Origin: Arthonia radiata
Taxonomy: Eukaryota > Ascomycota > Arthoniomycetes > Arthoniales > Arthoniaceae
Direction of reading: 5' to 3'
Assembly (NCBI GenBank): GCA_002989075.1
Contig: PSQN01000015.1
Location: forward strand, 1,178,001 to 1,242,000
Length of the DNA stretch: 64,000 nucleotides
Each line of letters begins with the position of its first letter. Positions within the stretch are counted from its first letter, which is position 1. Below the pieces are notes generated by a model. The model searched no databases. It was not told the DNA's origin and saw only the letters and a program-made list of their open reading frames with translations. Shown in pieces: positions 1,116 through 63,422 of this stretch. The position numbers and the translations under genes were made by a program.

Positions 1116-1589
1116 CCGAACCGCCACGACAGCCACGCCTTGCCGTACACTTTCCTTGTTTGAATATGCACCTTAGACAGCGAAGGCGTTTGGGCTTTGT
1201 GATGACGATAGACTTCTACATACTGCATTCTGCATAGCGAGAGTGGATTTGGACGATCGAGATGTCTTGAAGTTTTCAATCAGTGTAATAGTACGCATAC
1301 CTATTGTGGCGTCTCATAAGTAGTCAGACAGTCAATGCAGGAGGGACGCTGAGCGCTCCCTGTCCAGTGAGGCCATTTCCCGACCTGAATTCATCTGGGT
1401 CTTCCCAGGAGTAATAGTCATCCCACCGGCGAGTGTGGTCTGCACCGTGGTCACGATCACACGTAAGCTCAGGCCAAGTAGAAGGACCAGAATCAATGCC
1501 ATTGCTTGGGCAATTGTATTGATCAATAGTATGTCGTCTCGGGTCACTAACCATTGCAGTGACTCTAATACCTTGAAGTCCCTGTTTCC
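1116..1589. other. Convergent 3' intergenic region
   Basis: The DUF3431 gene and CLP1 end towards each other here. No reading frame with coding character, RNA gene or repeat was seen; it presumably holds both 3' UTRs. Confidence 0.6.
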
Positions 1590-26669: not shown

Positions 26670-28056
26670 GAGAACGGACGTTTGTGGATAGAGGTGGGGA
26701 TAGGTTTGCTGTCGGGGAGGGTTGAGGGGCAGAGGCTGGTTGTGTTGAGTTGGGTGTGGGGTGGAGAGTGACCGCGTTCGCCGCTGTGAAGCGATGCTTG
26801 CGCTTTCACAAGACGCATGAGGTCGTGGATGTGTATAAATTTCGTTGCGATCTGAAAATGAGATTGTAGTTTCTGACATGGTTGTTCCTATAAGCGTCTG
26901 CGGGGTAGACAGCAGTTGCGAAAGGTAATCCCTGCGAGTTGGTACCCGTCTTTCAGCGTCAAGCGTAGACGGAGATTCTGGGCTGTAGATCGAATGGTTG
27001 ATGTATATGTGGCTGGTGCTGGTGGCTTTCCCAGCCTTGTCGGCTTCTGAGGCAATACATTGCTCTTGTACTTGCGGCACGGGCGCACGGCTTGGCCGCA
27101 TTCGGAGAGGCAGACGTAATTTCGATTGTGCTTGTTTCATAGTTCGTGTGGCTGCCTATTGCGTTATGCTCGATCATGGCCCCTAGATCGTTCAAAAAGC
27201 GTCTTATCGGGTTCGACACGAATGGATCTGATTGTCTGGCTAGTCCCGAGGGATGAAATCAATAAGGATTCCATGCACGGCGCAAGTACGCGAGCTTCGT
27301 TTCAGGTGTCTGGTCTAGAACAAACGCAACAGCTACAAGGCATTCTTTTAGAAGGAGCTTAACGACTGGATTAGTAAATGCCTTCGTGCAGGTGTACTAC
27401 TATCGCAAGCAAGATAGTCTCTGCCATACTTTTGCAACCCGCAAATCTGCGCCATCAACGATGTGACTCTCCCCACTTGACCTGTTCCACGACGCGATCA
27501 ATATTTTAGCGCAAGGCACCTGGCAGTCGGATTTGATATGTTGCTATGATGACAAGTACATTGCCCCTGCTTATACGAGTCGTTCTCCAATGCATGTTTC
27601 AATCCACGTTAGTACTCAATGACGTGCAAGAGATGAGAACTTATCCTGAAAGAGTCAGATCGAACCTATGTGGTAATTAGCAAGGACCTTGAGGCTCTTC
27701 GCGACGATTGAGGCCGGTGAGAAGGCCAGTTATTCTCCTTCAGACGGACTCGAGCGTACTGTGTGCTATTGCTTTGATCCTGACAGATCGCTCCCGAAAG
27801 TCTATTGGGAAGGTGTCAGAAAGCATGATGTTTCGGCCACAGGCTTTCGTTGTAGATTGACAGCGTCAACCTCCCGTGTTATGGAATCAACTGTCTTGGC
27901 AAGTGCCAGTAAGAGGAAGATAAAAGCGTGGTATGTCCTGCCATGTCGATGGGCGTTGCGGACATCAAACGTCTTTCTCGTCTTCTAGCAGACGAATACT
28001 TGGATTTGAGCCACAAGCGCGCTGCATTCAAATCTTTCTTGCCACTTGTTCCAGCA
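26670..28056. other. 1.4-kb intergenic region
   Basis: Lies between the small unknown gene and the secreted nuclease gene. No supported feature. Confidence 0.45.
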
Positions 28057-29193
28057 ATGCATACTCTCGCGGCATTGACAGCCCTGCTCGCCTTCCACAC
28101 CATTAGGGGCGTGGTGAGTGCACCGCATGCTGCCTCTGCAGACGTGCTTGACGCACGATCCGACCACAACGGCACCACCAGCAGGCTCGAAGCTAGGGAT
28201 GCCGGCGATAGTCAAGACAACCCTATCGATATATATCTTGATTGCACGAACATGCAGGACGCCTGTGAGGTGGACTGTTACGCGATCTTGTGCCGTGGCG
28301 ACTCTCCGGTGGGCAAGCGCGCCGAGCCAGGTTCTCAATCAGGCCGTCGCACGGAGTGTGGAGCCAACCGTCAGCCATACAAGGACACCTCAAAGTTCGT
28401 CCCTCGCGGCGGCCTCAAGCGCAAGAACAGTGACGCCGTGTCCGCTGAGGAGTATCCTTTCGCCAGCATGGAGGTAAGGTGTCGACTGTTATGATCACGC
28501 CAGGCGACGACAGCATGCGCTGACGTGACATTCTAGCAAGGCGGCTATAATGAGGAGACACAAAGGTGCTCGGTGACTGCGGGGGTTCCGCTATCAGACC
28601 AGGGTGTACAGGCGACCCAGCTCATGAGTGCATTTAGACAAGGACGCGTTGCCCCCGGTAAATGTGAGTTCTCGACGAGTCGAAGCTGTTTGCTTTAGCC
28701 ATGCTTGATTAACAACATCCCTCCGTTTAGGGTTTCGCAACAATTTCCAGAACGGCCACGGGTGAGTACTAATCATTCTTCTGCTTTTATAAGAGCAGCG
28801 AACCAGGTAGCAAGACCGTAGACATTGTTTTTCGGGGCACTGACCTCTGTGACGCACAGGAAGTACTGCAGCGCGCTAGCTAGAAAGGATCCCATCGTTT
28901 GTTACGATGATAACCCTCCCGAAGACGATCTGAGAAACCTTGCATTCTCCAAAGATTCAGCGAAGGGCGCTTCTTTACATTTCTCACAAGCATGGAAGCC
29001 CCACAAGAAAGCCAAGCGGCAGGACTTTCCAGAAGATGGCGGAGCGGGTACCGAAGTGGAAAATCCTGGTGACCCGTTTGATTCCTACGACGTCAACGGC
29101 GTGGCCGTAGATGGAGACGACGTCGGAAACGAGTGGGACTCTGACCCGCCAGAAGACCGGACCGTCTATGGTGGTATAGCAACAGGTGACTAG
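28057..29193 (+). CDS. Secreted NucA/NucB-type nuclease-domain protein
   Basis: Four exons (28057-28473, 28537-28663, 28731-28761, 28860-29193) encode 302 residues, with all junctions in frame. The start was placed at the ATG that opens a typical signal peptide, MHTLAALTALLAFHTIRGVV followed by SAP. After a spacer with many charged residues comes a domain resembling PF14040 (deoxyribonuclease NucA/NucB): ECGANRQPY, then EEYPFASMEQGGYNEETQRC, then VPLSDQGVQATQLMSAF and FRNNFQNGHGKYCSALARKD. The EYPFAS...GG core is the most diagnostic. In bacteria these enzymes are secreted non-specific DNases; fungal copies occur in many filamentous species and are little studied. The core acidic pair is E-E here where many members have D-E, so activity is not assured. 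The tail after residue 240 is acidic and low in order. Confidence 0.78.
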
Positions 29194-38951: not shown

Positions 38952-41900
38952 ATGAGCCCATTCATGGATGATGACGACCCTCAAGATGCTGAACTGGGTG
39001 AAGATGAAGTTGATGATGAGCCCGAACATGGCACGCACAAGATCACACACAGAAGACGAAGACAACAAGCCATCTTCAATGACTGGTACCAACGCGAGGC
39101 AGCTACTACTGATTTCTCAAAAGTCAGACGATCCGCGAAACCGAGCGATGGGCCAGAGATGGAGTCGATCAAAGACTTGCTGAGAAACACCAGTGGCAAG
39201 AAAATCATGGGCTCGGAGCATGAATTTCAGATAGCTCTCTTTGAACGGGCCAAAGAACGAAACACGATTGCCGTAGCTGACACTGGCTCTGGGAAGACAC
39301 TCATCGCCATGAACCTGCTCAAATGGACGTTGGAGCAAGAGATCAACGCCCGTGCCGCTGGCAAGCCTCGGAAGATAGCGTTATTCTTGGTAAGGCTGTC
39401 TCTGATCTGTCTACGCCTGCTGCTTGTCTGACTCAAGTAGGTTGATAAAGTGACATTGATGTTCCAGCAATACTCCGCGTTCAAGTCGGAGTTGGCATTC
39501 ACAATTGAGTGTGTTAGTGGGAAGTACAATCGCAGCGATTTATGGTCCAGATCGAAATGGATTGAGCTACTCCACAAAGCCGACGTCCTCGTCTGCACAG
39601 CGGAAGTCCTGCACCAAGCTCTGATGCGTTCCTTCGTCCGCATGGAGCTTATCAATCTCCTAATCTTTGATGAAGCTCATCACGCAAAAAAGGGGCATCC
39701 TTATGCAAGGATCATGAAAGACTATTACGCGCAGATGGCACCAGGCGTAGCTCGGCCTCGCATATTCGGCATGACTGCCTCTCCCATCGACCTTCAGGAC
39801 GAGACGGATATTGAAGACTGTGCTAGGTAAGGCGTCGTGAACCCAGCCTGTCCCTGATCTAACAAAGCGCAGGGAGCTCGAGACCATCCTTGACGCTCGG
39901 ATCGCAACATATCCCGAAGAACTTATGCAGGACAGATCCCAGAAGGCTGAAGAGGAGGTTCGATCGTACTGGAGAGCCCCAAGGCACCCGCGGACCGCGC
40001 TGTACCATGCTCTACACGACAAGTACCGAAATTTGCAGCACTTCAATGTTCTCTTCGACCGAGCAAATGATATCAGAACTGAGCTTGGATGTTGGTGCAG
40101 CGATGCGTTCTGGCAGTTTGCATTTACCGAGGCGGAGTCGAAAAAATGGGTCATTCGCGCCGAACGCAGGCAGGCCAAAGAGCATGAGAGCGAAGAATAT
40201 CGTCAAAAGTTCAATAGAGAGGTGAAGGACCTTCAAGAAGCACAGCAGCTGATCGAAAAGCATCAGTTGCGACAACCAACGACAAATTTCGACGACATTA
40301 CTCCGCGCGTGAAAGCGCTCTGGAACATACTGATGGAGTACTTTGAGCGAAAGAGCGATTCACACTGTTTGGCCTTCGTTGAGCGTAGAGAGACTGCCCG
40401 ACTACTGCATCTGTTGATGAAGCGTCTGGACATTCCCTATTTGAAAAGCGATATCCTTGTTGGCTCAACATCGCGAGACTTTGAAGGGGACCGGCTTTCC
40501 TTTACCCAACAGATCAAGACGACCAAGAGGTTTCGAGCGGAGGACGATTTGAATTGCTTATTCGCAACCAGCGTTGCGGAAGAGGGCTTAGACATCCGCT
40601 CTTGCAACGTCGTTGTTCGATTTGACCCCTGCAAGACAATGATTCAATATATCCAGTCGCGAGGCAGAGCACGACATCAAAATTCTCGATTCATTCACAT
40701 CATCGATGCGAATGACCAAAGAGCATCAGATGCGTTGCATGAGCACGGGCAAAGCGAAGACCGCATGAAGAACCATTGCAAGACAATCCTTGAAGACCGC
40801 CAACTTTTTGAAGAGGACGATTTTGAAGAACCTGATCCAGACCTTAAACCTTGGTCAGTACCTGGCGGCAATGCAGTACTTCAGTACCATGCCAGCATAG
40901 GGATACTGAACTCTTATGTGGATACAATCACTCACGACGAAGAGGACGATATGGATGTCCGCTACGTCATGTTCGCGCGAGACGGCAAGTTCGTCTGTGA
41001 AGTCAGTCTACCAGAGAGAGCTGGGCTTTCTGCGATCATTGGCCGACCGTTTCCCAAGAAAGTCACGGCAAAATCTTCAGCAGCCTTTGAAGCATGCAAA
41101 TCGCTTGTCCGTCAAGGCATGCTCGATAATAATCTGACGCCTTTCCGGGAGAAGCGAATGCATCATATGAGAAACGCACGGCTTGCGCTGAAGTGCAAGA
41201 AGCAGCGTACTTACGATGTACAGCGCAAGCCTACCCTTTGGCAGTCAGGACGAGGGTCCATCCAATCGAAGCTGTATCTAACGGTGCTTCAACTTGCTGA
41301 CCGATGGGATCGCCCAACACGGCCACTCGGACTTTTCACACGACACAAACTACCTACACTGCCGTCATTTCCCCTCGTCAGAATGGATGGTATACCAGTT
41401 GCTGTGGAAACCATCATGGCTGAAGTCGAGACCAATATGGACGAGCAGACATTTTCACAGCTGACATGGTTCACGCTCACTATCTTCAAAGACATCTACA
41501 ACAAGAAGTTCGAGGACGCTCCACAAGACATGTCTTACTGGCTTGCACCTCTGAAAGGTCTAGTGACCTCAGCTAGGTCTGACGCTGTTGACTGGTCGTT
41601 GTTGCACGAAATGCATCGAAAAGAGCCCCTCAAGTGGAACCGCGAGATGTCAAACGCAGAGTTGTTGAATAAGTTTGTCCTCGATCCTTGGGATGGAGGT
41701 CGCAGATTCTTTTCGGAAGCCATTGAACCATCCCTAGGCCCCTTCGATGAGATTCCCAAGGACGTCGCGCCCGGACCCAGAGGTGCAGAGAACATCATTG
41801 GGTACAGCTCAAGCTTGTTCAAGAAGTCACATGCAAGGCGCACTTGGGACGAGCAGCAGCCTGTCTTTGTCGCAGAGAAGGTTATCCATCGCCTCAACGT

Positions 41901-43733
41901 TCTTGCTGCGCCTCACGAAGCGGAGCAAAACGCGGTTACCAGAAGCCTTCTCTGCGCCGAGCCACTCGATTACTCGCGTTTACCTCCCGAAGTTGCCACC
42001 ATGGGATTACTCTTTCCATCAATCATCCACCGGATCGAATCGTACCTGATTGCCCTAGACTTCGTCAATGTTCTTGGGCTTGATGTACAGTCTCACAGAG
42101 CATTAGAGGCCATCACGAAAGATTCCGACAACTCGGATGACGCACAGGCAGAACAGATCAATTTCCAGCGAGGCATGGGGCCCAATTACGAGCGTCTGGA
42201 GTTCATTGGGGACACTTTCCTGAAGATGGCAACTTCGCTTTCGACTTACATCATCAACGCTAAGAAGAACGAGTCGTGGATGCACGACGAGCGCATGATT
42301 CTTCTGTGCAACGATAACATGTTTCATAATGCTCAGCATCATGGATATGCTAAGTATGTGCGTAGTGAGGCTTTCTCGCGGTAAGTCTCTTCTCGATTTA
42401 TTGTACATCAGAGATACTGGCTAATAAACGTAGCCGAACCTGGTACCCTGAGGGCCTGAAGCTCCTTCAAGGGAAAGGTGCCAATAAAGTCGACGGAGGT
42501 GACCCTCCTCAACAAGCGCTCAGCGACAAGACGATTGCGGACGTGTGCGAGGCGATGATTGGTGCTGCTCTGGTGTCCCATGTGGTGACCGGCTATGAAA
42601 ACTTAAGCTGTTTTGACAACGCCGTCAAGGCCGTGACAGCCTTTGTTGAGAGCAAGGAGCATGCTGCACACAACATGATGGCATGGGCCGACTACTACAA
42701 GCGGTACAGAAAGCCGACTTGGCAGAAAGCAGCGTGCGCCGCTTCTGAGCTACACCGGGCCGAAGAGATGCAGCAGATCCACAAATACAAGTTTAAGTAC
42801 ATCAAGCTGCTGACCTCTGCATTGACCCATCCTTCCTTGCCAAGCAGTTACTCCAAAGCTCCGAGCTATCAGCGTCTCGAATTCCTGGGAGATTCGCTTC
42901 TCGACATGGCGTCTGTGAAACATCTGTTCTACACCTATCAGCACAAGGACCCACAGTGGATGACCGAGCACAAGATGGCCATGGTCTCCAACAAATTCAT
43001 GGGCGCTTTGGGCGCAAAGTTGGGCCTGGGGAAGATGATCTACCAGCAGAGCCCGATGGTGCGGAAACAGATACTCACGTATATGGAGGAATTTGAAGAA
43101 GCGCAGCGCGAAGCCGGATCCTCACGAGGCTTTTGGCAAACACTCAAGGAGCCTCCCAAGGTGAGTCGTGACCAGTGGTCGACAAGTATGCAAGCCCTGC
43201 TGACTCTAGACTTCAGTGTCTCGCGGATGTGGTCGAATCCTACGTTGGGGCCATATTCGTAGACTCAAAGTTCAACTTTGCAGAAGTGCAGAGATTCTTC
43301 GATACACATATCAAGTGGTTTTTCGAGGACATGAGCATCTACGACAGCTTCGCGAACAATCATCCCATCGTGAGTACAACTGTCTACGTTGATCACTGGT
43401 GTCGATACTGACTGTCTCAACCAGAACCGCTTGCGCGACTTCATCGAGACCTCAATGGGCTGTCAGAACTGGCGGTTGATGGCGAAAGACCAAGTCTCGG
43501 ATGACGAGTACACAACAATTGTTCTGGCAGCTGTCTTGATTCATGACAATGTCGTTGGAAAGGGTGCCGCGAAATCTATCAGACCCGCAAAATCACTCGC
43601 CGCAAACGATGCCTTCGAGCAGCTGAACGGACTTGCGCCGGTCGTACTTCGTGGGAGAGTCGGTTGCGATTGTGTGCTGAAAGATGCCGAGATGAAGGAG
43701 CTCGAAGGTGCTTTTGAGGATACCGCCATCTGA
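38952..43733 (+). CDS. DCL1: Dicer-like protein 1
   Basis: Six exons (38952-39389, 39441-39826, 39873-42380, 42434-43160, 43217-43369, 43425-43733) join in frame to 1506 residues, the usual fungal DCL1 length. Order of parts: acidic N-terminus; DExD/H helicase with ADTGSGKT near 109 and DEAH near 223; helicase C-terminal domain with FATSVAEEGLDIRSCNVVV and QSRGRARH; Dicer dimerisation domain near 605 (NAVLQYHASIGILNSYVD); RNase IIIa with ERLEFIGDTFLK near 1047 and ADVCEAMIGA; RNase IIIb with QRLEFLGDSLLD near 1256 and CLADVVESYVGAIF; and a short C-terminal dsRNA-binding-like region. The acidic catalytic residues of both RNase III centres are in place, so the enzyme looks active. It should cut long dsRNA into siRNAs for quelling and antiviral silencing. 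The helicase text (NTIAVADTGSGKTLIA) matches DCL1 better than DCL2. A PAZ domain could not be confirmed. Confidence 0.95.
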
Positions 43734-47241: not shown

Positions 47242-48520
47242 ATGTCCCTCCTCGCACGCAACCTACTCCAGCGCTCGCGCCCAGCGCTCAGTAGACCAGT
47301 ACTCGCAACGCCAGCGCAGAGACTCGCATCCATACGTTCACATCTCTCTCCTACACCGTTGCGAACACTCAACGTCATGTCCACCGAGCCCACCCTCCCT
47401 ACCTCCATGAAAGGCGTCCAGATCGCGTCCACAGGCGGCGTCGACGTCCTCGAATACAAAGACGACCTCCCCGTCCCTAGTGTAAGCCAGGGACAGGTTC
47501 TCGTTAAGGTCGAGTACGCGGGTGTGAATTATATCGATACGTATGTCCTTCCCTTTCACCACCCCCCACGCTCTCCCCATTCACCTCCTCCGACTCACCG
47601 CTCCCGCTCTCCCCACCCACAGAACCTCCTTGCGCCCACCAACTAACACCCCCAGCTACTTCCGCACAGGCCTCTACCCCTCCCCACTCCCCCTAACCCT
47701 CGGCCGCGAATGCGCCGGCACCGTCGTCTCCCACTCCTCCCCGCCGACCCCCAACTCGCCCCCTATCGGCGCAAAGGTCGCATGCCTGACCGGGCACACC
47801 TACGCGCAATACGCCGCCGCAAACGTGAGTCACGCTTATGAACTTCCGCAGTCCTTCCAAGACATGAAGGTCGCAGGCGCGGCCTTACTACAGGGCTTAA
47901 CAGCATTGACGCTAATACGGGAAGCGCACGAGGTCAAAAGGGGCCAATGGGTGCTCGTGCACGCCGCAGCGGGGGGTATGGGATTGTGGCTGTGTCAATT
48001 ACTGCGGGCGGTGGGCGCGAAGACGATCGGCACGGCGAGCACTGCCGAGAAACGGGATACCGCGAAAGAGGCAGGGGCGGACGAGCTTTTGCCGTACCCG
48101 GAGGCCATGGAGGGCGGGGTAGACGGGTTCGTGAAGAAGATCATGGAGATCACTGGGGATGCCGGAGTGGCAGCCGTGTTCGACGGGGTGGGCAAGGCGA
48201 CCTTTGACGTCAGTCTACAGTGCGTAGCAAGAAAGGGAAGTTTCGTGAGTTTCGGGAACGCAAGTGGAAAGGTGCCGCCGGTTGAGATATCGAGGCTCGC
48301 GGGCAAGAATGTCCGGCTAACGAGGCCGATGTTGTATGGATATGTGACGACGCGGGAGGAGTTTGAGCGGTACGCAAACGAGTTGTTTGAGATGGTGGAG
48401 GCGGGGAAGGTGGACGTGAAGATTCACGAAACCTACGATCTCACGGACGTGAAGAAAGCGCATACGGATATCGAGGGCCGGGGGACGCAGGGGAAGTTGT
48501 TGTTGAAGGTGGCGGAGTGA
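47242..48520 (+). CDS. Quinone oxidoreductase (zeta-crystallin type, MDR superfamily)
   Basis: Two exons, 47242-47540 and 47656-48520, split by a 115-nt pyrimidine-rich intron, encode 387 residues. The core aligns with NADPH:quinone reductases such as yeast Zta1: VLVKVEYAGVNYIDTYFRTG, LGRECAGTVV, GLTALTLIREAHEVKRGQWV, and the NADPH-binding loop HAAAGGMG. The chain lacks the zinc ligands of alcohol dehydrogenases, as expected for this branch. The first 45 residues are rich in Arg, Ser and Leu and almost without acid, like a mitochondrial presequence; a second in-frame ATG at residue 46 (47377) would give a cytosolic form matching the usual family length of about 330-340. The enzyme reduces quinones or enals by one- or two-electron transfer and may protect against oxidative stress; AU-rich RNA binding is known for some relatives. 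Confidence 0.92.
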
Positions 48521-50595
48521 GGTTTTGGGGGATTTGGGGTGAGACGACGAAAATGAGACATGCATAGCTGACATTTAGCATTGCACATATGATTGAACAT
48601 AGCATCTAACGCGAGACTGGACCTTCTTAGAAATGTTGACGCAATCGACTGCTTCGAACACCGTCGATACACTAACCCCTCGAACAGCAATAACACAACA
48701 GCAGTGCGGATCGGCTTTGAAGTTTGAACAACTCGACCGAGCGACGACAAGCATTTATGCATGGCTCGGAGCAACGCCGTTAGCCATACACAAGCGACGA
48801 CCCATAATGTCTAAGATGCATGCAACCCCATACCATACTCGCGGGACTTGACAGCAGCAAAGGCTCACGTGCGCGATCGAGAACTTCAACGAGACACCAC
48901 TTGTCTCAGATCCATGTACGCTGGACTGCAAACGGCGCATTTGAGCCAGGAACGCCCAATCCTCAAACGACACGTGTGTGGGCTTAAACCACAGGACCAG
49001 ATTCGCGCAAAGCTCAATCGCACTTCTTTTGCCTATCGCACCAATACCACCCAACGACCACCTCCAATCTCGGATCTTTCACCCCCGTACTATCAATCAA
49101 CCAATCCCGCCACACCGGCGACGCCAATCTCTGAAACCCTTTCAAAAGTACATCGGCAATCTTGACACCCTTCCGGATCTCCACAAACGATCTCACACAC
49201 GATCGCCACAAAAACGGCGACTGCCGCCATCCGAACCTCATACCTCATATCGTGGTACAAAAACCGCTAACGAGTCTACAAATCCCAAAGTCGAGGTGTG
49301 GATGTACCAAAGTACCCGATCGTGCGTCGTTCATGCACGTCAGACGGCGATCGGGACGCTAGCGCTTGATGCGGTTGTTATCTTGCCGGGGCTGTGTTTC
49401 ATTCCGTGCAGCTATTGGGACGTGGGGGGCGGCGCTGCAGGGGCGTTGTTTGCTTACTCTTTGACTCTTAGATGGGGTGAGGGATCGCGAGCGGTGTTTG
49501 GAATGGGCAGTGCGCCGTGTTGTCGCTTGTACGTGGCAGATGCTCGCCTAAGTCAACGTGGGCGAATGGCACGCACGCCTTGCTCTGCTGACGTCTGTTG
49601 CGTTGGCATTGGCTGAAATCGAGTTGCTGTTTCCAAGATACGGGCGTCGCTTTGATTGAATGTGATTACGGTAAGTGGCTTTGCCCTTCGCGTTCACAGC
49701 ACTTTTGCTGTCCACGCCCGACTCACGCTTATCCATTTTCCTTCTCTATTTTGCTCCATGCGGCAATGGTATCCTCGCTCATCCTGCAAAGGCGTCTTTC
49801 ACGAGGTCGCTTTCGCATCTAACCCAACAATTTCACAGCAAGCAAAGAGCCTCGAGAGAAGGCAGACTAGCAATTTATGTAAGCGTGCAATGCCACTGCT
49901 TGTAGGTTGCTGTCTTCTTGCAGTCTCTCTGGAACCTCTCCAAAATCCTTTTCCGATTCTTTCTGTCTTGGAGCTTTTAAGGTCCCTTCAATTTCTTCCG
50001 GATATTTTAATATTTAATTGGAAGCTCAATTTTTGCTTTGAGAAGTCCTCTCTTTGAGCAAACCGAGAAGCATGAGTATATTGGACTTCAGCATGATCAA
50101 GGTGTTGCAGGCAACATTTTAGGAAAAGTATATGAAGATGAGAAGGGGACAGGGGGCCTGGGATGCTCGATTCTAACAGGATTGGCCCCTGGTTGGGGGG
50201 AAATGTATTTTGAAAAGTGTTCTTTGAGGGAGAGTTCGAGCGTCCACTCCTTCTTATAATGCAAAACAGATCGCTTGTAGACCGTTACAAGAGCATTGAC
50301 TTGACAGGATGATGGAGAAAATAGACAGTGATGAAATGTGCACTTCTAACGAAGATAACAGGAGGCGTTTTAGGCAGTGAAAACTTTGTTTGTCGTCAAA
50401 GAACGTATGTCAACAATCAGCTGGTCCAGAAGATACAATAGGTAACATGAATTGACTCCCAATGCGCGAGACGGCCGCAAACTCCGGACGTCAAGCTCAT
50501 GAGACGTGTTCATGCGAGGTTGTCTGCTGTAGATGGTTGGGTTGATCTCAGTGATCGGCCATGCCTCGCTCCACGGTCTGTGACGGTTCAGACCT
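48521..50595. other. 2.1-kb gene-poor stretch before the paralogue array
   Basis: Longest gene-free stretch in the window. It includes an AT-rich patch at about 49985-50045. Open frames on both strands (for example 48978-49616) show no coding character, domain or splice structure. Confidence 0.45.
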
Positions 50596-51350
50596 TCATT
50601 CCAGCCCCTCAAGCCACTTTGATGGTGCAGGGATTGCCTTCTTTTTTGCAATCGCCTGCTCATATTTCTCCAGAACTTCTTCAGATGGCGCTAGAGGGTG
50701 TCCAGGTTGAAACATATATGCCGGGTCAGCGAACTGCAATGCGTCAGCGGAGATTGGTAACAGTGTCGAGCGCAAATATTTACGTGGCAGTCGCAGCTAC
50801 GGTCCTTGCAAGAACACATCCTCTTCAGGCTCCCACCTGCTTTGTTCCACAGAGCAAACAGCTGCCACACCAGATCGCTCTGATCACATGCGAACCAATC
50901 GCTTGCGGGGTCGAGGCCATGCTCAGCGTATAGATCGTGTGCTTCAGTGAAGGCGACAAAGGACATGGCTTTGACTGTCAGCACGAGACTGTAGCTCTTT
51001 CGGTCTTGGACGAGAAGTGGAACACCGATATTATGCGCATCGATGGATTGCCTATACTCCGCTTCTGCCCAAACCTCCTCGCGGCTGTCCTGCGCTACAT
51101 CGATAAGGTAATCGTTGCACGATTTGGTGTACTTCTCCATTAAATCTTGTTCTTTGGGATCGGTCTCACTCGCAAACTCATAGAGTTCTTTTAGATACGT
51201 ATGTACCTCGCTGAGAGCCTTGAGTCGAGGTGAGATAGTAAGAAGCGTCTGCAGCTGCTCCGCGAGGTCAGGTGGTGGCAAAGGTGGCACTGAGAGCGCC
51301 AGCTCAGAGAAGAGCGACACTCTCAGTAAAGGACTCTCGATTGGTTCCAT
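50596..51350 (-). CDS. Tandem paralogue A, unknown family with C-terminal CxC motif
   Basis: I do not recognise this family. Exons 51350-50784 and 50733-50596 join over a 50-nt phase-0 intron (GTAAAT donor, GCTGAC branch, GCAG acceptor) to 234 residues. No signal peptide or membrane segment; predicted mostly helical and acidic. Shared blocks with the neighbouring copies are SEVHTYLKELYEFASETDP at about 45-65, then a Glu/Trp patch (EEVWAEAEY), then SYSLVLTVKAMSFVAFTEAH and DLYAEHGL, and finally CSCKDRSCDCH just before the intron, a C-x6-C-x-C pattern that could bind metal. The short second exon encodes FADPAYMFQPGHPLAPSEEV and a basic helix, different from the other copies. It is the 3'-most of four same-strand genes and 407 bp from copy B. 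Confidence 0.75.
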
Positions 51351-51757
51351 GGCGTTTTGCTGTAACGTTGCGGTCTCTTATTTCAAGCGGAGATGCAAGA
51401 GGGGACGAGAGAGAACAAGAGAAAAGGAGAGGAGGGAGAGACAGGGAGTAGGGAAGTAGGAGGAAGATCGATATTCAGATACTTGCCAAGCTCTGAAGGG
51501 GGAAGAAGCAGCCGGAAAGTCGCGGCCTCAAGGTATGTTGGGAAGGAGCGAACGGTGTGCATGGCTCGTATCAGAGGATAGTGCAGAGAAGGAGCGTTCT
51601 CAGTGTGTACCATCCTCTGCCCACCTCACAAGACTGCACCTTGCGTGTACGTCCCCACTAGCCTTTGATGCCGTCGTGTAGGCTACCAAGCAAGATGTAT
51701 CCGTCCTCTGTTGAGAACCTACCCCATCATTCAAGAGTCTTCAAGCGTAAACGAGCT
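51351..51757. other. Spacer between array copies A and B
   Basis: 407 bp including a purine-rich tract at about 51391-51450, which is a pyrimidine tract just upstream of copy A on its own strand, as often seen in fungal promoters. Confidence 0.5.
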
Positions 51758-52479
51758 CTAGTGCCCGAATTGCTTCGTCACCAGCTTCATGATGTTGTCG
51801 TCTTCAAGCTCCTTGACGACCTCTTCGGGAGTGAGCTTCTTTGTTAGCTCCCCGTTAGTCCGCACTCAAGATAAAGTAAACTCACATCACACATGCAGTC
51901 GTCGGTGTCATGAGCACAAAGACTGTCCATGTTCGTCTCACAGCATCCACTCAGGATGTGGAAGGCACTATGAGCATCTTCGTCGCTATGAAATCCCCAG
52001 CAGAGATCGCGTGGAGTTTCGAGACCATGCCGACTGTAGATCTCCTTCGCCTCCGTCTGTGCGACGTCCGAAAGAGCCTTGATGAGCAAGAGGACTGGAT
52101 AGGGGCGCTTTTGCTGGAATTGGTGGTAGAAAGGCCAGTGATGCCGAGTTTTTGCAGCCCATAGACTCTCATCCTCGCTCCATGCGGCTTCTTCGGGTGA
52201 TTCCGCTTCGGTGATGAAACGGTTGCTAGTTGCGCCGTACTTCCAGAGGCATCTATTTTCGAGACGTCCATCTTCGACACGGTCGACTTCCATGAAGTGA
52301 CAATAGAGTGACTTGAGATAGGTGTGGAGCTCGTGGAGTTGTTTGAGTTCCGGAGATTCGGCGTTGAGTGCGAGGATTCGGGCATACTGTGGACGGGCGT
52401 ACTCTGGATCGATTGGTTCTTCTTCCTTCTCCGCAGGAGGGCCGGGCGCAGGGCAATCGTCGTGTGGGTTGGAAGTCAT
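51758..52479 (-). CDS. Tandem paralogue B, unknown family with C-terminal CxC motif
   Basis: Exons 52479-51886 and 51838-51758 join over a 47-nt phase-0 intron (GTGAGT donor, GCTAAC branch, AAAG acceptor) to 224 residues. After a proline- and glutamate-rich start, the shared blocks are LKQLHELHTYLKSLYCHFME, then EEAAWSEDESLWA, then YPVLLLIKALSDVAQTEAKE followed by IYSRHGLE, and CAHDTDDCMCD immediately before the intron (C-x6-C-x-C). The second exon is short: LTPEEVVKELEDDNIMKLV and a few more residues. This copy has extra cysteines (ILSGCCETNMDSLC). No targeting signal. The acceptor could also be three bases later, removing one lysine. Identity to A is low outside the blocks, so the duplication looks old. 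Function unknown. Confidence 0.74.
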
Positions 52480-52851
52480 GATAGATATCTTGCGCTGGCT
52501 TGGAGTGCGTCAGATGCGCTCATAGGAGCTTGAAACTAGAGAAGTGAAGATAAACGAGGTCTGGAAATCTCTCAACAGAAAGTCACGGTTGGGGCGCTAG
52601 TGCAGTGTTTGCCTAATCTTGCGAAGAGGCGAGGGTGCCAGATTACCGGCTACATGTGCAAATGAGGCAACTAGTTGCGAGAGAGAAGCGAGCCGGGCCT
52701 CAGAGGGGAGCTTTGAGCACTTCTCACAATCGTCTCATGAGTCTACTGACATCTAATCTCCTGCTGTCCTGCCAGCATCATCGGGCGCGTATTGCTATGC
52801 ATTGTCGCGGTTGTCTCCTCCACGAGCACGAATGTCCTCCTGAGTGTCAGA
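52480..52851. other. Spacer between array copies B and C
   Basis: 372 bp. Nothing recognised beyond presumed promoter of B and 3' UTR of C. Confidence 0.45.
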
Positions 52852-53605
52852 TCAAGATCCTTCAGAAGCCTTCGCAGTATCATTGGCAGACTCCTGGAGT
52901 GAACCCTCGGCTGTCTCCAGGTCGAGCAGAAAGTCCTGTACACTCGTTAAAACAGTCATCACAACAATTCCTTGGCCCACGTACGTCGCAAATGCAACCG
53001 AAATGTCCTCTCAAGGCACATATTTCTTTGGCCTTAGTGTTGGCGCGCTCCACAAGAGCCCCAAGCTTAGACGTGGTGCAGCTGTCGATATGGAGCGCGA
53101 ACTCAAAAAGGTCTTCGCCACCCTCGTCCATCAGGATCTGCGTCGCTTCTACCCAGGCCGCCTCAGACATACCCTTGACCAGCAATGCCAATGTGTAGCT
53201 GTCCTTGTCCTGGCCGTTGAGTAGCACCGACGATTCTGGAACGCTGTTGTAAAGTCTGGCCCGGTCGTATTCGTCATCCAAGTGCTGAAGCTCCTTGCCA
53301 TCAGTGGCTTTGGAGTAGGCCTGAAGGCACCCTTCCTGATACGTCTCCAGCGTTTTTGACTCGCGAGGATCGATATCCATTGCGAAAGCGTACAGTTTGT
53401 TGAGATACTTGTAGACCTCTTTGAAGCGTTGAATCTTGGGATGGTTGGCCTCGAGGTCTTTGAGCTTCTTCTCAAGCTTATTGGGCTTGCGGCTATGCAT
53501 TTCGCCCTGGGTCACTGCGAAATTTGGCATTTCATCGTCATCAACTTCAATCTTGGTCGTCTCGGATTGAGCATGCTCTGGAAGGTCAGCGGAGGCGGAC
53601 GCCAT
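52852..53605 (-). CDS. Tandem paralogue C, unknown family with C-terminal CxC motif
   Basis: Exons 53605-52985 and 52935-52852 join over a 49-nt phase-0 intron (GTACGT donor, TTTTAAC branch, ACAG acceptor) to 234 residues. An acidic N-terminus and a lysine-rich stretch (KPNKLEKKLKDLE) precede the shared block FKEVYKYLNKLYAFAMDIDP, then RESKTLETYQEGC, then SYTLALLVKGMSEAAWVEAT, and CALRGHFGCICD right before the intron (C-x7-C-x-C). Exon 2 gives an acidic tail, DFLLDLETAEGSLQESANDT and a few residues more. It most resembles A in the first helical block (both have an FA..(T/I)DP(K/R)E pattern). No signal peptide, membrane helix or known enzyme motif. Function unknown. Confidence 0.75.
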
Positions 53606-54075
53606 AGTTGTTGGCTGGTTCTCGTGTATGTCGAATGAGGGTTACGAGATGCGGAGAGCGAGAAGTCGAAGAGAACAAAGATAGGTGAGGGAAGTGCATT
53701 AGAGTCCGAGAATCACTCTACCGCCGAATATAGTAGTTTCAAGCGCCTTGTTTAATTGTTGCCTGGCAGCTGGGCTCCAAGGATGCCTGTCACCTGTCGC
53801 AAGCTGTCGCGAAGCTTTAGTCAAAGTGATGGGATTCATCCGTTGCAGTAGAGCCAAGACGGGCGAGTGCCCGGTAAGAATGAATGTAATGGGTTGCATA
53901 CGCATCATGTCCTCAATGATGCAGGTTTATAGCTGCACAGGCTGGAGCTTCCGACCAGGTTGGCATCGAGTTTCTTTGACACTGCATTTGACAACTATTC
54001 CCTTCTGGCGTCTTACGCTATTGCTTCTTCGCCCCTCCAACACGCGTGCAGCGCTGCGACTCGAGCACTCGCCTG
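53606..54075. other. Spacer between array copies C and D
   Basis: 470 bp; largest spacer in the array. Nothing recognised. Confidence 0.45.
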
Positions 54076-54925
54076 CTAGTTCAACCTGAGCCAAGGTCCA
54101 TTGTAGTCTCCCTCTCCCAACTTCTTTTTCGGATCTGGCGACTGGCTTTGGATGCCTTTGCTTTCAGAAACTGGCTCATTGGCAGTGAACGTGGCAGATC
54201 TCGGTAGGCAAAGCATCATCCTCAATGTCGACGCGTTTCTCTGCTGGGACAAGGTGATGAGGTCGAATTGATCAAGCCCGTCGCGATGGTGTTGATAGAA
54301 GTATCCTGCAGCCATGTCACCCGAGATACCGAGAGGCACGCCTCGAGCCACTTCCGAGCTTGACTCAAATGTCTGGGCAGATGTCAGTGCTGAGTCCTCC
54401 CTCAATGCATTTACGCAAATCGGCTACCTTGCAAGTGCACTTCGACGGATCTTGACCTGAGCATATGTAACGAACGTCCTCGCTGGCTCGATCAAACAGA
54501 ATGCCAAGATCGAGCGCGACGTTGACAGGCGCGTGATCAACCGAAGGGTAGAATTCCTCCAGCCCGTTCTCGCTGTAGATTTCTCGCGCTTCGCCGTGCG
54601 CTACTTCAGCGAAGCTCTTTATAAACAGCAACAGTGTTTAGCTATTCTTCTCTTGAGCGGCATAAAGATAGTGTTCTCGCGCATCCTCCACACAAAGGCC
54701 TTCGTTGAAGGCCCAGTCCGCCTCTTTGTCATCTGTAGCAAGTTGCGCAAGTTCGGCGCAAGTGTCGTCGTACCGCTTCAATCCTTCCTCTTCAGTTTCA
54801 TCAATTTGGAGGGCATACTCGTGAAAATTTGAGAGATATTTTTGAACCTCACCGAGACGGTGGAGTTGAGGCGAAGTCGAATGTAGAATGGCAAGCTTTT
54901 GAAGGTTCCGCTGATATTCCGCCAT
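54076..54925 (-). pseudogene. Tandem paralogue D, interrupted copy of the same family
   Basis: The frame from 54925 (MAEYQRNLQKLAIL) carries the family block LGEVQKYLSNFHEYALQIDE and the Glu/Trp patch, but meets a TAA at 54640-54638, exactly where A and C have tyrosine in their SY(S/T)L motif. In the same frame beyond the stop the family text resumes (TLLLFIKSFAEVAHGEARE, IYSENGLEE) and reaches CSGQDPSKCTCK (C-x7-C-x-C). A splice donor follows at 54427 and an acceptor at 54373, giving the same phase-0 intron as in the other copies, then a 98-residue second exon, much longer than theirs. Only one interruption is seen, so it is a young pseudogene, a truncated 95-residue protein, or a sequencing error; no splice explanation for the stop was found. 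The frame is open further upstream to an ATG at 55126, giving a proline-rich extension absent from the paralogues. Confidence 0.65.
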
Positions 54926-55208: not shown

Positions 55209-58200
55209 TTATCGTAATCGTCGCAGTCCTTCAATCATAGTCTTCATTTCTTCTAGTCTCCCCTCTTCAACTTGAGCCTGAGCGAGGACCTGCTCCTGCA
55301 TCTCAGCCTTCAGATCGAGAAACATCTCGATAAGCTCTCCATCGACGAATCTGAAGGGTTCAGCCTCCTCCCTAACTGCATTTCGGAAGCCCCGCCACAC
55401 TCCGAAGGGCACGTCGCCAGGACTCTTGACCACCTCAGCCAAGGCACCTTGCAGACGCATCATTAGGTCTTGAGAGCCATTTTTGATGGTTGCGAATAAA
55501 TGAATGCTTCCTTCGACAGTCGCCAGAAACGCCTTTGGCACCACTGGCAACGAAGGCGGTGTAGGAACGTTGATGCGCTGCATGCGGTTCACAAGCTCGC
55601 TAATGCACATCTCCGAGGTGACCTGCAGTCGTCTTCGATCTTCGGCAGTGACACCGTTTGTATCCTGCCGCAACACCATCAAGTTCCCCTCTGCGTCAGA
55701 CTCAAGGTAGGAGTTGTCCTCAGCATCGACCAACTCCACGGCGGTGGCCCAGGTTGTCGAGAAATGCCGTGCCACTTCAGTCAATGTGTCAGGGAGACCG
55801 AGGTGACCTCGCGCGTACTGTACGATGGAGACAGATTTCATGAGATCACCAATGGCAATCATGTGTTTTCCCTCAGATGGTGTGTGGGTCGCAAGAGAAA
55901 TTGGCGCAGTACTTGTGCGATATGAGGCTTTCTTGATCAACGACGGCTTCGATGGGGTGGTATAGGACAGCTCGTAGATGATGACCTAGTCCAAACATTA
56001 GTATAGTACTCAACCAAGATAACGATAGGCTACGAGAAAGTCTTACTGTCTTGATAAGAGCAGCAACTATCTTGCCGTCAACCATACCGAGCACACGACA
56101 CGCACCCCTGACATTCTGTTCGCAAATCCCCTTGAGTTGGCGATCCTCGGTCACCTCAAGAATCACGATACGCCCTCGTATAGCCTCATCAGCGTCATCA
56201 GCAATGTATGCAGTGCCAACAACAAAACGCTCCACCCTTCGACCGTGCCCGTTATCGAGTTCGCATCGCATGACGCTCTCAATCAACTCATCCTCGTTGA
56301 GTAAGTAGCTCGACTGAATAGCGAATGTCACCTCGTCGGCGAGTTTGAAGGCACTCTGGACCACTTCGACGCCATTCTCGAGCGATCGCGAGATAGTGCC
56401 GAGGCCAAATGCTGCGAGTTTTGGCGAGTGTGCAATCCGCCGTACAGTCTCACCAATGTGTAAACCCTGCACATGAGTACTGCGCTCTTCATCGACCATG
56501 GCAATCCTCAGTCCACTCGGACCAGCGATGGCAATAGCGCCTGGGTACGCAGCCGCGTCAAATGGAGCAACGACTGCTGCATCTTCCGCGGTGACCGCTG
56601 AATATGTGAGGCGACCTTCAGAGCCATAGATAAGCGACGCATGCTCCGCAATTGCCAAAACGTTGTCAAGACCATCAGCACGTGGCAAGATGCGCAAGTC
56701 TGCCTGCTGAGTACCGAGGACAATGCTCTTGGGATTGTTAAGTGCGCCAGTAGATGACTCGCATACATATGTTACAACCGTCCCGTCTGCAAGAGCAACA
56801 AAGAGCGTGGGCGGCCGGCCTCGCAGTACTTGCGCAAGTACCAAAGACCGCGGAACTGTCGGTGAGGTCTTTCCAGAGGATGATTCTGGAATTTCTGCGG
56901 CTGCATGAACAATATTGAGATCCGAGAGAGATAGTACAGTAATGTCAGAGCTACCCCAGAAGCCAACGAACAGCAGTGAAGTGTCGGGGCTCTGAGAGAT
57001 GTTGATGCAAGCTATTTGAGAGTCAGAGCCAGACTCGTGGGCCGAGATGGACTTGAGAGAGTCGTCAAGGGATAAAACGTAAAGACGAGTGCCAGAGACG
57101 GCAACTACCAGAGTCGAAGGATTAGCGGTGACGGCGGTAATGGCGGCTGTAGTATCAGACTTAGGTGGTTTCCATTCTGCAGTAAGCGATCCGGTTCGTA
57201 GATCAGATAACCTTACTGATGATTGGTTGACCTGAAGGATTCCTTGGGAGCTGTCGTTTCCGGCAAACAACGTTGCAGAATCTAGCTGCAAGCCATTGAA
57301 CTCCGCGAGCTCCTCAGCATCTCCATCCGCGGAGAAATGGAAGACACGAGTCTCGGAGATCAGTGACACGACTAGCGTGTCGACGTGCTGACCCACAGGA
57401 CTGGACTTGATGCTGAACATGTTCGTAACGTTGTCAATTTGATCGAGCAAGCCGAGATCTTCGAGACCAACTCCGCTTCTGACACTCCTCAAGCTGCCGT
57501 CCTTGAAAGCACCGCTTCCAGTGACAAGACGGGCTTGACCTGAAGAGAACTCGTTGGCCTGGCCTTCTCCGCCTCGATTGCCCATATCCATGATTGTGAA
57601 GTCAATGATCGGGGCAATATTGGGTAAGGTCTGGAGAATTTCGATGGCTTGAGGCTTGATAAGAATTAGCTGTGAATCGCCTGAATGCGAGCCCACAAAG
57701 ACACGGCCTTCGCCGAGATACACGAGGACCTCTGCTTTGCTCGTCTCTCCAATCACATCGATTGCCCATCCAGTGAGGGAGCCCTGTGCGTTGATTTGGA
57801 GCATGAACAGATATAGCTTTCCATACTCATCTGCGAATACATAGCGCTGCGTATCGATCTGCTCCCACGCGACAAATATGGTGGCTGCCTGAAGCGGTCT
57901 GCGGGTTGTTTGATTTGAAGAAGCTTCATAGTACAGGATGGATGTCTCTGCGAGTACAAGAAAGCCGTGAGCCGGTGCCGCCACCGGTATCAGATGACTT
58001 GCTCCAGCCTCTAAAGCTCTTTCGTAGTTGTGCTGTGCTTCCGGCAACTCCGCGCTGGGTCCATCGCCGGAAAGGCCAGGTGAGAAATCAATTTCTCTTA
58101 TCCTTAACTTAACGCGTTTGTAGTTGTCTTCGTACAATAGCGCAATCTTGGACTTCTCTTTGGGGGCTTGAAGGCGAGAAGTAAAAAAGGTCGAGGATCG

Positions 58201-58731
58201 AACGAACATCTCAGGGATGCGGACAGGTATAGGGTCGCCTAGTGTGCCGTGCTCGGGTACTATCGCATTCAATGGTGTTCGTTTCGGTAAAGTTGTAGGC
58301 CCGATGACGGGCACGATTGTGACTACACCTTCGTACAGCTCCAGAGTCACGAACGAGCCTGTTGGATCTGTGTGTACCCGATCCCCAGTCTGACTTTCCC
58401 GGGCGGACTTGTCCGCCTGATCTACGTATGTGCGTTGTGTTTTGAACTGTTTTGTGGAGGTGTCCCACGATAGCACGAAGTACATGAAGCGGTCGGTGCC
58501 CACGAAGAGCTGGTCCGTCGCGGATGAAGCAGGCCGCACCTTGGAGAGCATTGTGATCTTGCCATAGACGGCTCTTGTATACTGGCTGACGAGGCCATTT
58601 TGGTTTTGCGAGTAGATCTCGAGGCGGTTGTTTTTTGCGACTGCTAGACTTTCTTCCTCCGGATTCAAGAAGTTGAGCTTAAGAGCATGGCGTATTGAAG
58701 TTGCAAGATGGATCGGAGCCAGGTAAGCCAT
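55209..58731 (-). CDS. DDB1: DNA damage-binding protein 1 (DDB1)
   Basis: Exons 58731-56047 and 55985-55209 join over a 61-nt intron to 1153 residues, close to human DDB1 (1140). The N-terminus MAYLAPIHLATSIRHALKLN then FLNPEEESLAVAKNNRLEIY is highly diagnostic; the start was set at this ATG rather than an earlier one (58749) because the family begins here. Three WD-like beta-propellers fill the chain, with DRFMYFVLSWD in the first, and the CPSF-A homology region near the C-terminus contains RIVILEVTEDRQLKGICEQN and VRGACRVLGMVDGKIVAALI. The intron falls between KT and VIIYELSY. DDB1 is the adaptor of CUL4 ubiquitin ligases. In fungi it pairs with DCAF-type receptors for nucleotide excision repair, replication licensing and, in Neurospora, heterochromatin formation through the DCDC complex. 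It sits directly downstream of the paralogue array on the same strand. Confidence 0.95.
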
Positions 58732-59082
58732 TGCAATACGGGAGCACACGGTGTGGGAGACGAGGTAATACCCGCAGATGGGTGGTCATAGAAGAAGCGA
58801 TAGTCAGCCTAGTGAATACAAAGTGAGCTTCCGAAGTTCGTTGGAGCTCTCATGCGCGTCACTGCGTGATACATTAACTCCGAAATTATCTCCGCTTCGA
58901 GTTCCGTGGCCGGCGTCACGCGTCAAAGCGTATCGGCATTATTGTGACATGATCAGCGGCCACGCAGCTCGTGAAATCCTTCGTATGCAGGGATAGAACT
59001 CCTTCTCGGCTGTTCAGCATTATCTTTATTGACATATCCATGTATCTTTCGTGCGCAACATCATTGAGTCAATCTCCCATCC
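58732..59082. other. Intergenic region, IPMK 3' end / DDB1 5' end
   Basis: 351 bp holding the DDB1 promoter and the end of the kinase transcript. Nothing else recognised. Confidence 0.45.
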
Positions 59083-61519: not shown

Positions 61520-63422
61520 ATGTCTTCAACAGAACCCTCAAACAGCCGGTCGTGGCAAGAGCCAGAAGCTGCGGTGGGCAGTGATCCCCACGCTCATCCT
61601 GATCAAACCTCTGGGCTATCGACACCAGCAGAGAAGAACGAGCCAGAGCTCAACATGGCCAGCCGATCAGATGAAGCAGAAGCTGTTCGTCGACAGGTCA
61701 GTTTGTGTTCCATGTCTCTTCAGCTCGAGCTCATCTGTAGTAGGTTGATCACTACTTTTCTGGAGACAACTTGGCCAAGGACACCTTCCTCCTCCAGCAA
61801 ATGAAGGGCCGGAAGAACAGACCCATTCCGGTTCAGATGATTGCCAAGTTCCAGAAGATGCGAGAGTATCAGCCTCTCGCATTCGTCATCAAAGCTCTGA
61901 AGACTAGCAGCATGGTCAACATCGTCAAGCACGAGGGCAACGACTGCATTCAGAGAAAGGAGCCATTCATCATGGAACAGCAACAGAAAGCCAGTGGCAC
62001 TCAGTCTGTTCGCAGCTGGGCGAAACCGAATGCTGCATCTGGCTTTGAGTCGTATTTTACTGAAGGTCCATTACCGCCTGATGTGGCTGCAGAGGAGAGC
62101 GAGATCTACAACGAAGACAGCACGTTCGAAGAGTGCGTACCGCGAAAGCTTTATCCTACTACTTACTGACTCGCATCAGACGAATGGAGCACGCTATCCG
62201 TGCCTATATCACTCGTCGCAAATTCAACTCCACCGTTTCCAACATCTTCTCCAAGTGGATGCGCTTCGGCGGCGTCGATGTTCAACCCCATGCTCACGTT
62301 GCCAACACTGTTGATCCTCAGGAGCTAGAGGGTCTCACAGCAAAAGAGAAGAAGCTCGCGCTCGCTCCCAAGCCCTATCTCTCTGGGGAGGAAATGGACA
62401 CGGATGGCAAGCCTCTGTGGGAGGTTGACTTCGAAGGCGTCTCTGAGGCCTTCCTCTCCTCCATCGTCCCCGAGATGTTCATCTTCAACCGCCGTGACCA
62501 GTACTTCGAACTTACAAACGTGATGCAAAACTTCCTGCGCTACCTGCAGTACCACCGCGTCTGCCCGGAATACAACACCGCCATCAATGCTACCATCCGC
62601 ATCTGTGACATCGCCAATCGCGAGCTCCCGGCGTGCGAGACCCTCCAACAGAACCTTCCTGGCGCATTCAACACCGCGGCCTCTACGCTCTTCGGTGGCG
62701 TCTTCCACGACGCCTTCGTCGGAGATCAAGAGTGGGCTCGCGGCGAGCGCAGCGAAGGCATCGACATCTCGCACGGCCTCAGCGGCAAAAGCTCAAAGCA
62801 GCTATACATGACGGGCTTCGTTGCGTTCGAAAAATCAAAGCAAGGTCAACAGCGCCCACTCGACAAGAAGGAGATCATGGGCCAGCGTATTGCCTCTCGT
62901 GAGAGCGTTGTCGGCCTCGAGGTCGTCGAGATCCTTCCCCCAACTGAAGACGTGATCGAGATGTACACACTGATGGGCGCCGGCTTCGAGCCTCTTGGGC
63001 GGCTCGTGTGTCGCACCTGGCGTGCTCCTGATTTCTTCGACTGGGATCTACCCGCGCACGTCTCACAAGCGTCTATGGGCAAGCAGCAGGACAAGACCTA
63101 CACCTTCCTTCTTGAAGAGACCCTTCTCCAAAATTGTCATGTCGGCATCAAGCTCGAAAACGCGCGTATCATCACGCTTGAGCCGAGCGGGATCCAGATC
63201 CTTGATGGCATTCCCAGCCATACTAGGGCGAGCTTCTACCAGGTTTTGGAGAACGAGCTGGTGCTGAAGTGGAAGGAACCGAGGTTCATCACGAGGGAGG
63301 AGCAGAAGGAGCGTGAGGCCCGGCTCGAAGAGTGGAAAATGGCACCAACAGCGGAGAGGGTGGGTGAGAGGAGTGGCGGTAGCGGTGAGGGCAGTGAGGT
63401 GGGCATGGATGATGAGTTTTGA
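61520..63422 (+). CDS. ARB1: La-motif/ARB1 fusion protein, Argonaute siRNA chaperone subunit
   Basis: Exons 61520-61696, 61744-62132 and 62180-63422 join over two 47-nt introns to 602 residues. The first 56 residues are acidic and disordered. Residues about 57-130 form a complete La motif: VRRQVDHYFSGDNLAKDTFL, PVQMIAKFQKMREYQPLAFV, IKALKTSSMVNIV and IQRKEPF. From about 155 onward the chain matches Arb1: ASGFESYFTEGPLPPD, RMEHAIRAYITRRKFNS, MRFGGVDVQP, WEVDFEGVSEAFLSSIVPEM, HRVCPEYNTAINATIRICD, FNTAASTLFGGVFHDAF and GDQEWARGE, VVEILPPTEDVIEMYTL, ending in LVLKWKEPRF. Arb1 in fission yeast is a subunit of the Argonaute siRNA chaperone (ARC) complex with Arb2 and Ago1, holding duplex siRNA before RITS assembly in heterochromatic silencing. 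The La motif would add an RNA 3'-end binding surface. I do not recall such a fusion in described ARB1 proteins. The first intron lies inside the La motif, so the two parts share one spliced frame. Confidence 0.86.

Follow-up and report, generated by a model that had tools for sequence, protein, structure and literature searches.

What is encoded by the four similar reading frames that follow one another on the minus strand of a 64,000-nucleotide (nt) stretch of the Arthonia radiata genome (contig PSQN01000015.1, positions 1,178,001 to 1,242,000; hereafter the window), and how did they come to lie together? The frames, at 50596-54925, form a head-to-tail array of four paralogous genes, termed copies A, B, C and D. 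The copies are homologous, share an intron column, are constrained at the protein level and, in the libraries scanned, fall into none of the named families; the array is a real, old tandem family with one interrupted copy, and it has no name in Pfam-A or NCBIfam. As an overall explanation, to which we assign a probability of roughly one in three, we propose that it is an old family, duplicated in tandem at the DNA level and kept by protein-level selection, of soluble intracellular helical proteins that carry a cysteine cluster and may serve in binding.

Pairwise local alignment revealed identities of 30-34% over 121-165 aligned residues (A-B 52/165, A-C 49/162, A-D 47/156, B-C 47/149, B-D 41/121 and C-D 49/157). 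In a shuffle test the observed scores had Z values of 15.1-27.9, and none of 1000 shuffles reached the observed score in any of the six pairs, which, with all copies on the minus strand, bears out the initial annotation in its claim of four same-strand paralogues. Moreover, when the copies were used one by one as tblastn queries on the window, a non-circular test unlike a profile built from the array itself, another copy was found below an expectation value (E) of 1e-13 in six of the 12 directed pairs. The four-copy profile, compared with 1601 six-frame segments of at least 25 residues, recovered the five open segments of the array, as it must by construction, and its best match among the remaining segments of the window had an E of only 0.81 over 18 residues. 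The best tblastn match within the window outside the array (copy A against 49173-49325) had an E of 0.13; this match of 54 residues lies close to the array on the opposite, plus strand and is probably due to chance. A fifth copy at 543-1112 (+), considered for its C-x(6,7)-C-x-C motif and E of 0.81, was rejected, as it sits just past a DUF3431 gene (191-901) and by eye falls within the last exon of that gene. The DUF3431 gene thus appears to span 191-1112 (+), with a C-x6-C-x-C stretch in its last exon that resembles the motif of the array.

The sequence blocks by which the copies had been grouped at the outset are borne out unevenly in the alignment. The EV-x2-YL block reads EL in B, and the E/W patch has its tryptophan in A, B and D but not in C. 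The Y-x-L block is YPV in B and cut by a stop in D. The C-x(6,7)-C-x-C motif, described as terminal, is found in all four copies, but the candidate intron starts one residue after it, so that it marks the end of exon 1 rather than of the protein; beyond it, exon 2 contributes 45 residues to A, 26 to B and 27 to C (98 to D, if so spliced). This motif alone is no evidence of kinship, because it occurs 21 times in the six-frame segments of the window, four of them within the array. The three cysteines of the cluster are conserved in every copy. A further cysteine, in the second long helix, is aligned between A, C and D, whereas that of B lies inside an insert nearby (residue 77).

The gene models (Table 1) are anchored on introns inferred from sequence signals. 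In all four copies, a GT stands in phase 0 right after the codon that follows the last cysteine of the motif, and the candidate intron ends in AG 47-55 nt further on, at the same column in each copy. Three of the four candidate introns (A, B and D) contain RCTRAC, the fungal branch-point consensus. As a control, 67 of 3551 minus-strand GT sites in the window (1.9%), frame ignored, have such a continuation within 44-61 nt. In copy B, an alternative AG three bases further on is equally serviceable. An intron common to the copies implies duplication at the DNA level and not via messenger RNA, and the features of a tandem family of that origin were found together here, namely a single strand, homology, and a common position and phase of the candidate introns. 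The gaps from coding end to next start measure 407, 372 and 470 bp (the last one counting copy D to 54076), in agreement with the spacing of 370-470 bp first reported.

Table 1. Gene models of the four-copy array (positions in the window)
Feature	Coordinates	Strand	Remark
Copy A	50596..51350	-	234 amino acids after candidate intron removal
Copy A, exon 1	51350-50784	-	
Copy A, candidate phase-0 intron	50783-50734	-	50 nt
Copy A, exon 2	50733-50596	-	
Copy B	51758..52479	-	224 amino acids after candidate intron removal
Copy B, exon 1	52479-51886	-	
Copy B, candidate phase-0 intron	51885-51839	-	47 nt
Copy B, exon 2	51838-51758	-	
Copy C	52852..53605	-	234 amino acids after candidate intron removal
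Copy C, exon 1	53605-52985	-	
Copy C, candidate phase-0 intron	52984-52936	-	49 nt
Copy C, exon 2	52935-52852	-	
Copy D, exon 1 region with in-frame TAA	54428..54925	-	Conserved residues either side of stop
Copy D, candidate phase-0 intron	54373..54427	-	55 nt; column as in A-C
Copy D, possible exon 2 (doubtful)	54076..54372	-	98 residues and stop; lowest coding score among the four second exons

Codon-position analysis showed the order of a constrained protein family, as identity is highest at the second position (0.49-0.58), lower at the first (0.40-0.49) and lowest at the third (0.27-0.35) in all six pairs. Columns identical in the other three copies are kept by A in 23 of 28 cases, by B in 23 of 33, by C in 23 of 31 and by D in 23 of 28, omitting columns gapped in the copy concerned. 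The coding scores of A-D are 0.174-0.311 bits per codon, compared to 0.148-0.273 for seven genes of the window scored by leave-one-out, and the second exons score 0.230 (A), 0.473 (B), 0.419 (C) and 0.121 (D). Synonymous sites between copies are nearly saturated. Among columns with the same residue, summed over the six pairs (n=285, without Met and Trp), the same codon is used in 122, versus 110.6 expected without memory, and third-position identity exceeds that of random re-pairing (fraction at most 0.02) in three of the six pairs (A-B, A-D and B-C). The terminal branches are 1.1-2.0 replacements per site long. In the best tree B groups with D (support 66.2) and neighbours, A with B and C with D, are not paired, though none of the three topologies is rejected (approximately unbiased test, p 0.29-0.68).

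The old tandem duplication proposed in the initial annotation is upheld. Its "fast divergence" is not demonstrated, because near-saturated synonymous sites make age and rate inseparable, and neither is its expansion under selection, as no replacement excess between copies is demonstrable at such saturation. The observation of the array is therefore confirmed in part, and its interpretation is likewise partly supported. The same saturation bears on the alternative that the array evolves fast in a genetic conflict inside the fungus, such as self/non-self recognition or defence against viruses or mobile elements, with its copies diversified by selection. A tandem arrangement, low identity, unlike N-termini and tails and one interrupted copy would all fit, but a replacement excess is undemonstrable, the constraint at codon position 2 is plain, and none of the Pfam-A matches listed up to an E of 1 belongs to a nucleotide-binding, HET or TIR-like family; we regard this alternative as decidedly unlikely.

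Copy D carries an in-frame TAA at 54640-54638, at a position occupied by Tyr in the other three copies, so that of the four genes first counted, all are homologous copies but only three are apparently intact. D keeps 23 of the 28 columns that are invariant among the other three copies, and its coding score differs little between the part ahead of the stop (0.248) and the part behind it (0.221). The stop should therefore be recent, confined to this isolate, or a sequencing error; barring such an error, the reading frame of D was apparently lost not long ago. An intron that would remove the stop is unlikely. Six GT-AG spans in the exon 1 region, 40-130 nt long and with a GT no more than 110 nt ahead of the stop, preserve the frame. 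Five of the six leave it open, none contains RCTRAC, and each deletes at least 25 codons around the conserved block. Repeat-induced point mutation, considered as a cause of the divergence or of the stop, left no sign in the dinucleotide indices: TA/AT is 0.62 for the array and 0.63 for both the D exon 1 region and the whole window, and (CA+TG)/(AC+GT) is 1.33 for the array, 1.22 for that region and 1.28 for the window.

The stop in D, together with exon 2 tails that lack detectable conservation, could also be read as decay, the array being the relics of a once useful family of which D is lost and A-C are drifting. However, exon 1 of A, B and C has stayed open over 189, 198 and 207 codons despite near-saturated synonymous sites, these copies each keep 23 of the 28-33 columns identical in the others, and D itself keeps 23 of 28, which points to a stop that is recent, isolate-limited or a sequencing error. 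A decaying array is thus very improbable.

What kind of protein has been kept? The products of A-C are acidic, with isoelectric points of 4.67-4.90 and masses of 25.9-26.5 kDa. By hydropathy, A, B and C have no membrane-like segment, their highest 19-residue value being 1.08, and the first 40 residues of A are of modest hydropathy, up to 1.04; as far as hydropathy goes, A-C agree with the reported lack of signal peptides. The cysteines number six in A, nine in B and five in C, in no common paired pattern. These properties bear on the idea that the proteins leave the cell by an unconventional pathway and have their target in a different organism. Many families of that sort are likewise small, cysteine-bearing, tandem and diverged, but A-C lack a strongly hydrophobic N-terminal stretch, their cysteine totals share no paired pattern, and the proteins are acidic with long predicted helices, all of which leaves export highly unlikely.

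The structure of C exon 1 was predicted by AlphaFold from five alignment rows (C, A, B and two D pieces), with a mean predicted local distance difference test (pLDDT) score of 72.9 and 59 of 207 residues at 90 or above. The model consists of helices at residues 43-54, 56-98, 103-121, 137-171 and 177-198 and has no strand. From residue 41 on, 10 of 17 blocks of up to ten residues average 84-96, and residues 1-40 are under 50. The core of C is thus partly well predicted, as a helical one.

Searches by sequence and by fold did not attach the family to a named one. No Pfam-A family reached its curated cut-off with A, B and C as open frames, as exon 1 or spliced, or with the two D pieces (the possible exon 2 of D left aside); the best scores were 12.4-13 bits for Pfk_N (cut-off 26.8) and 11.6-11.7 bits for Endo_dU (cut-off 32.7). 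Nor did any family of NCBIfam, a library built for prokaryotes, reach its cut-off with exon 1 of A-C and the two D pieces; the best of them, glut_trans with copy A, has an E of 0.0014 but scores 18.5 bits where the cut-off is 245, and was taken as chance. Both scans accord with the reported lack of named domains. Sequence searches of the PDB gave nothing below E 0.11. Foldseek found no match at E 0.001 for the C model against the PDB (351 matches to E 10, best 0.30) or BFVD (406 matches, best 0.069), or for the A model against the PDB (394 matches, best 0.36), the best 50 of each being examined. Structure prediction and fold comparison, suggested as a check in the initial annotation, thus gave a helical model of C without a significant PDB or BFVD match.

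The closest known structures among the matches listed are helical. Ferritin-like and Dps four-helix bundles resemble the proteins in being soluble, helical and of similar length, but the Dps-like chains match in sequence only at E 0.27-0.29; among the fold matches listed, the "iron binding protein" 6n63 has an E of 0.30 and ferritin or bacterioferritin chains have 0.90 or weaker (bacterioferritins 1.0 or weaker), with template modelling (TM) scores of about 0.16-0.31. Membership in the ferritin-like superfamily, whose bundles bind iron in their core through paired ligands of the ExxH type, thus found no significant sequence or fold match in the PDB, and we know of no counterpart of the cysteine cluster in ferritin-like or Dps bundles. 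Chains of CINP-C1orf109 complexes (9gwj_A, 8rhn_A and 9lgo_G) are likewise helical, with query-normalised TM-scores of 0.27-0.39, and 9gwj_A (0.39) and 8rhn_A (0.37) have the highest such scores among the best 50 of the 351 matches; however, their E is 0.97-1.9, their TM-scores are under the usual one-fold threshold of 0.5, and no such chain appeared in the sequence searches. These likenesses, and the fact that helical bundles are common, speak for descent from a known family of helical bundles, with divergence so great that the signal in the sequence has sunk below detection. With no fold match at E 0.001 or better among the best 50 of each search, no Pfam family near its cut-off, and any helical bundle apt to collect matches of this sort, we hold that explanation to be possible but somewhat unlikely.

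A viral origin or prokaryotic relatives were considered and rejected. A profile of A-C gave 149 pattern matches in viral_contigs and 94 in genome_contigs, none of them a confirmed relative, and tblastn of copy C against plasmids and phages found no relative. Absence from viral_contigs says little in itself, because the control made there, with residues 1-957 encoded by the RSE1/DDB1/CPSF1-family gene next to the array, gave two pattern matches and none confirmed; this control is weak, as a single-protein query detects close relatives only, and it suggests that viral_contigs holds no near kin of this fungus. Among the papers listed, titles and the opening parts of abstracts contained no description of the family, and titles retrieved with spellings of the cysteine motif concerned tick defensins, human polyomaviruses (two papers), plant antimicrobial peptides and spider venom.

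In the explanation we prefer, one single-intron gene would have been duplicated in tandem at the DNA level long ago, and each intact copy would encode an acidic protein of some 26 kDa, soluble and located inside the cell. The protein would run from a variable, probably disordered N-terminus through a predicted bundle of long helices to the C-x(6,7)-C-x-C motif ending the last helix, followed by a variable exon 2 tail. The bundle might bind a partner protein, and the C-terminal cysteines, perhaps with that of the second helix, might hold a metal ion, most likely zinc, or form a redox-sensitive pair, and in this way anchor the tail on the bundle; the copies may by now differ in partner or in timing of expression. 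That this unnamed family has a bundle fold unlike the solved ones, with three or four cysteines forming a novel site for a metal or for redox chemistry that anchors the exon 2 tail, so that the tandem copies present different tails on one core, is a more specific proposal and an unlikely one.

Several results weigh against this explanation. In tblastn with E up to 10, six of the 12 directed pairs are unlisted (A to C, A to D, B to C, C to A, C to B and D to A). The antisense frame scores 0.172-0.217, in B slightly above the sense frame, and because it scores nearly as high, codon usage leaves the strand unsettled. The candidate intron of copy C has no RCTRAC. The exon 2 tails of A and B are marginally similar (shuffle fraction 0.041, one of six pairs), and the other pairs show no detectable likeness, with fractions of 0.26-0.76; reading through without splicing does not raise the similarity (the lowest fraction is then 0.063, for A and C). 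In this comparison the C tail included the stop sign and one further residue, a small error. As the tails lack detectable likeness, splicing into them rests on the intron signals. In the model of C, a loop falls to 47 and the last seven-residue block averages 48; the model of A exon 1, from three alignment rows, is poor (pLDDT 60.5) and sets the cysteine motif in two short strands (block means 32-41), whereas that of C is strandless; the predicted TM-scores of the two models are 0.57 and 0.59. Finally, three conserved cysteines leave the fourth ligand of a metal site uncertain.

The array is flanked by a zinc-binding dehydrogenase gene (+, 47543-48520) on one side and by the RSE1/DDB1/CPSF1-family gene (minus strand, frames 55209-55940 and 55873-58749) on the other. 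Elsewhere in the window, a Dicer-like gene in pieces lies at 39925-43262 (+), with helicase C, Dicer dimerisation and two RNase III matches, and an Arb1 gene at 62133-63422, about 19 kb away, makes a second RNA-silencing gene. Two Anp1-family glycosyltransferase genes, at 8980-9999 (+) and 17081-18546 (+), are about 7 kb apart; their Pfam matches lie in 8980-9996 and 17081-17818, and 17803-18546 looks by eye like the second half of the latter gene. The Arb1, Dicer, Anp1 and RSE1/DDB1/CPSF1-family genes, along with the short introns, suggest a filamentous fungus. In addition, 27928-28494 (+) possibly encodes a NucA/NucB-like DNase (score 22.1 bits, cut-off 23.8) with a secreted look by eye, and an open frame at 1327-1857 (-) contains a dense cysteine run, CKPGHREGCKCDGLPLCGRCRC.

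In its head-to-tail arrangement, low identity and lack of a named domain, the array resembles the lineage-specific tandem families of fungi in general. Old tandem families without a name are common in fungi, and among the fungal genes that domain libraries leave unnamed, a considerable share belongs to small tandem families whose fold is unknown. Without relatives from other fungi the array is an ordinary kind of finding. Nevertheless, gene models anchored on a common intron, together with a predicted helical core, make it feasible to build a family model that could be traced through related species.

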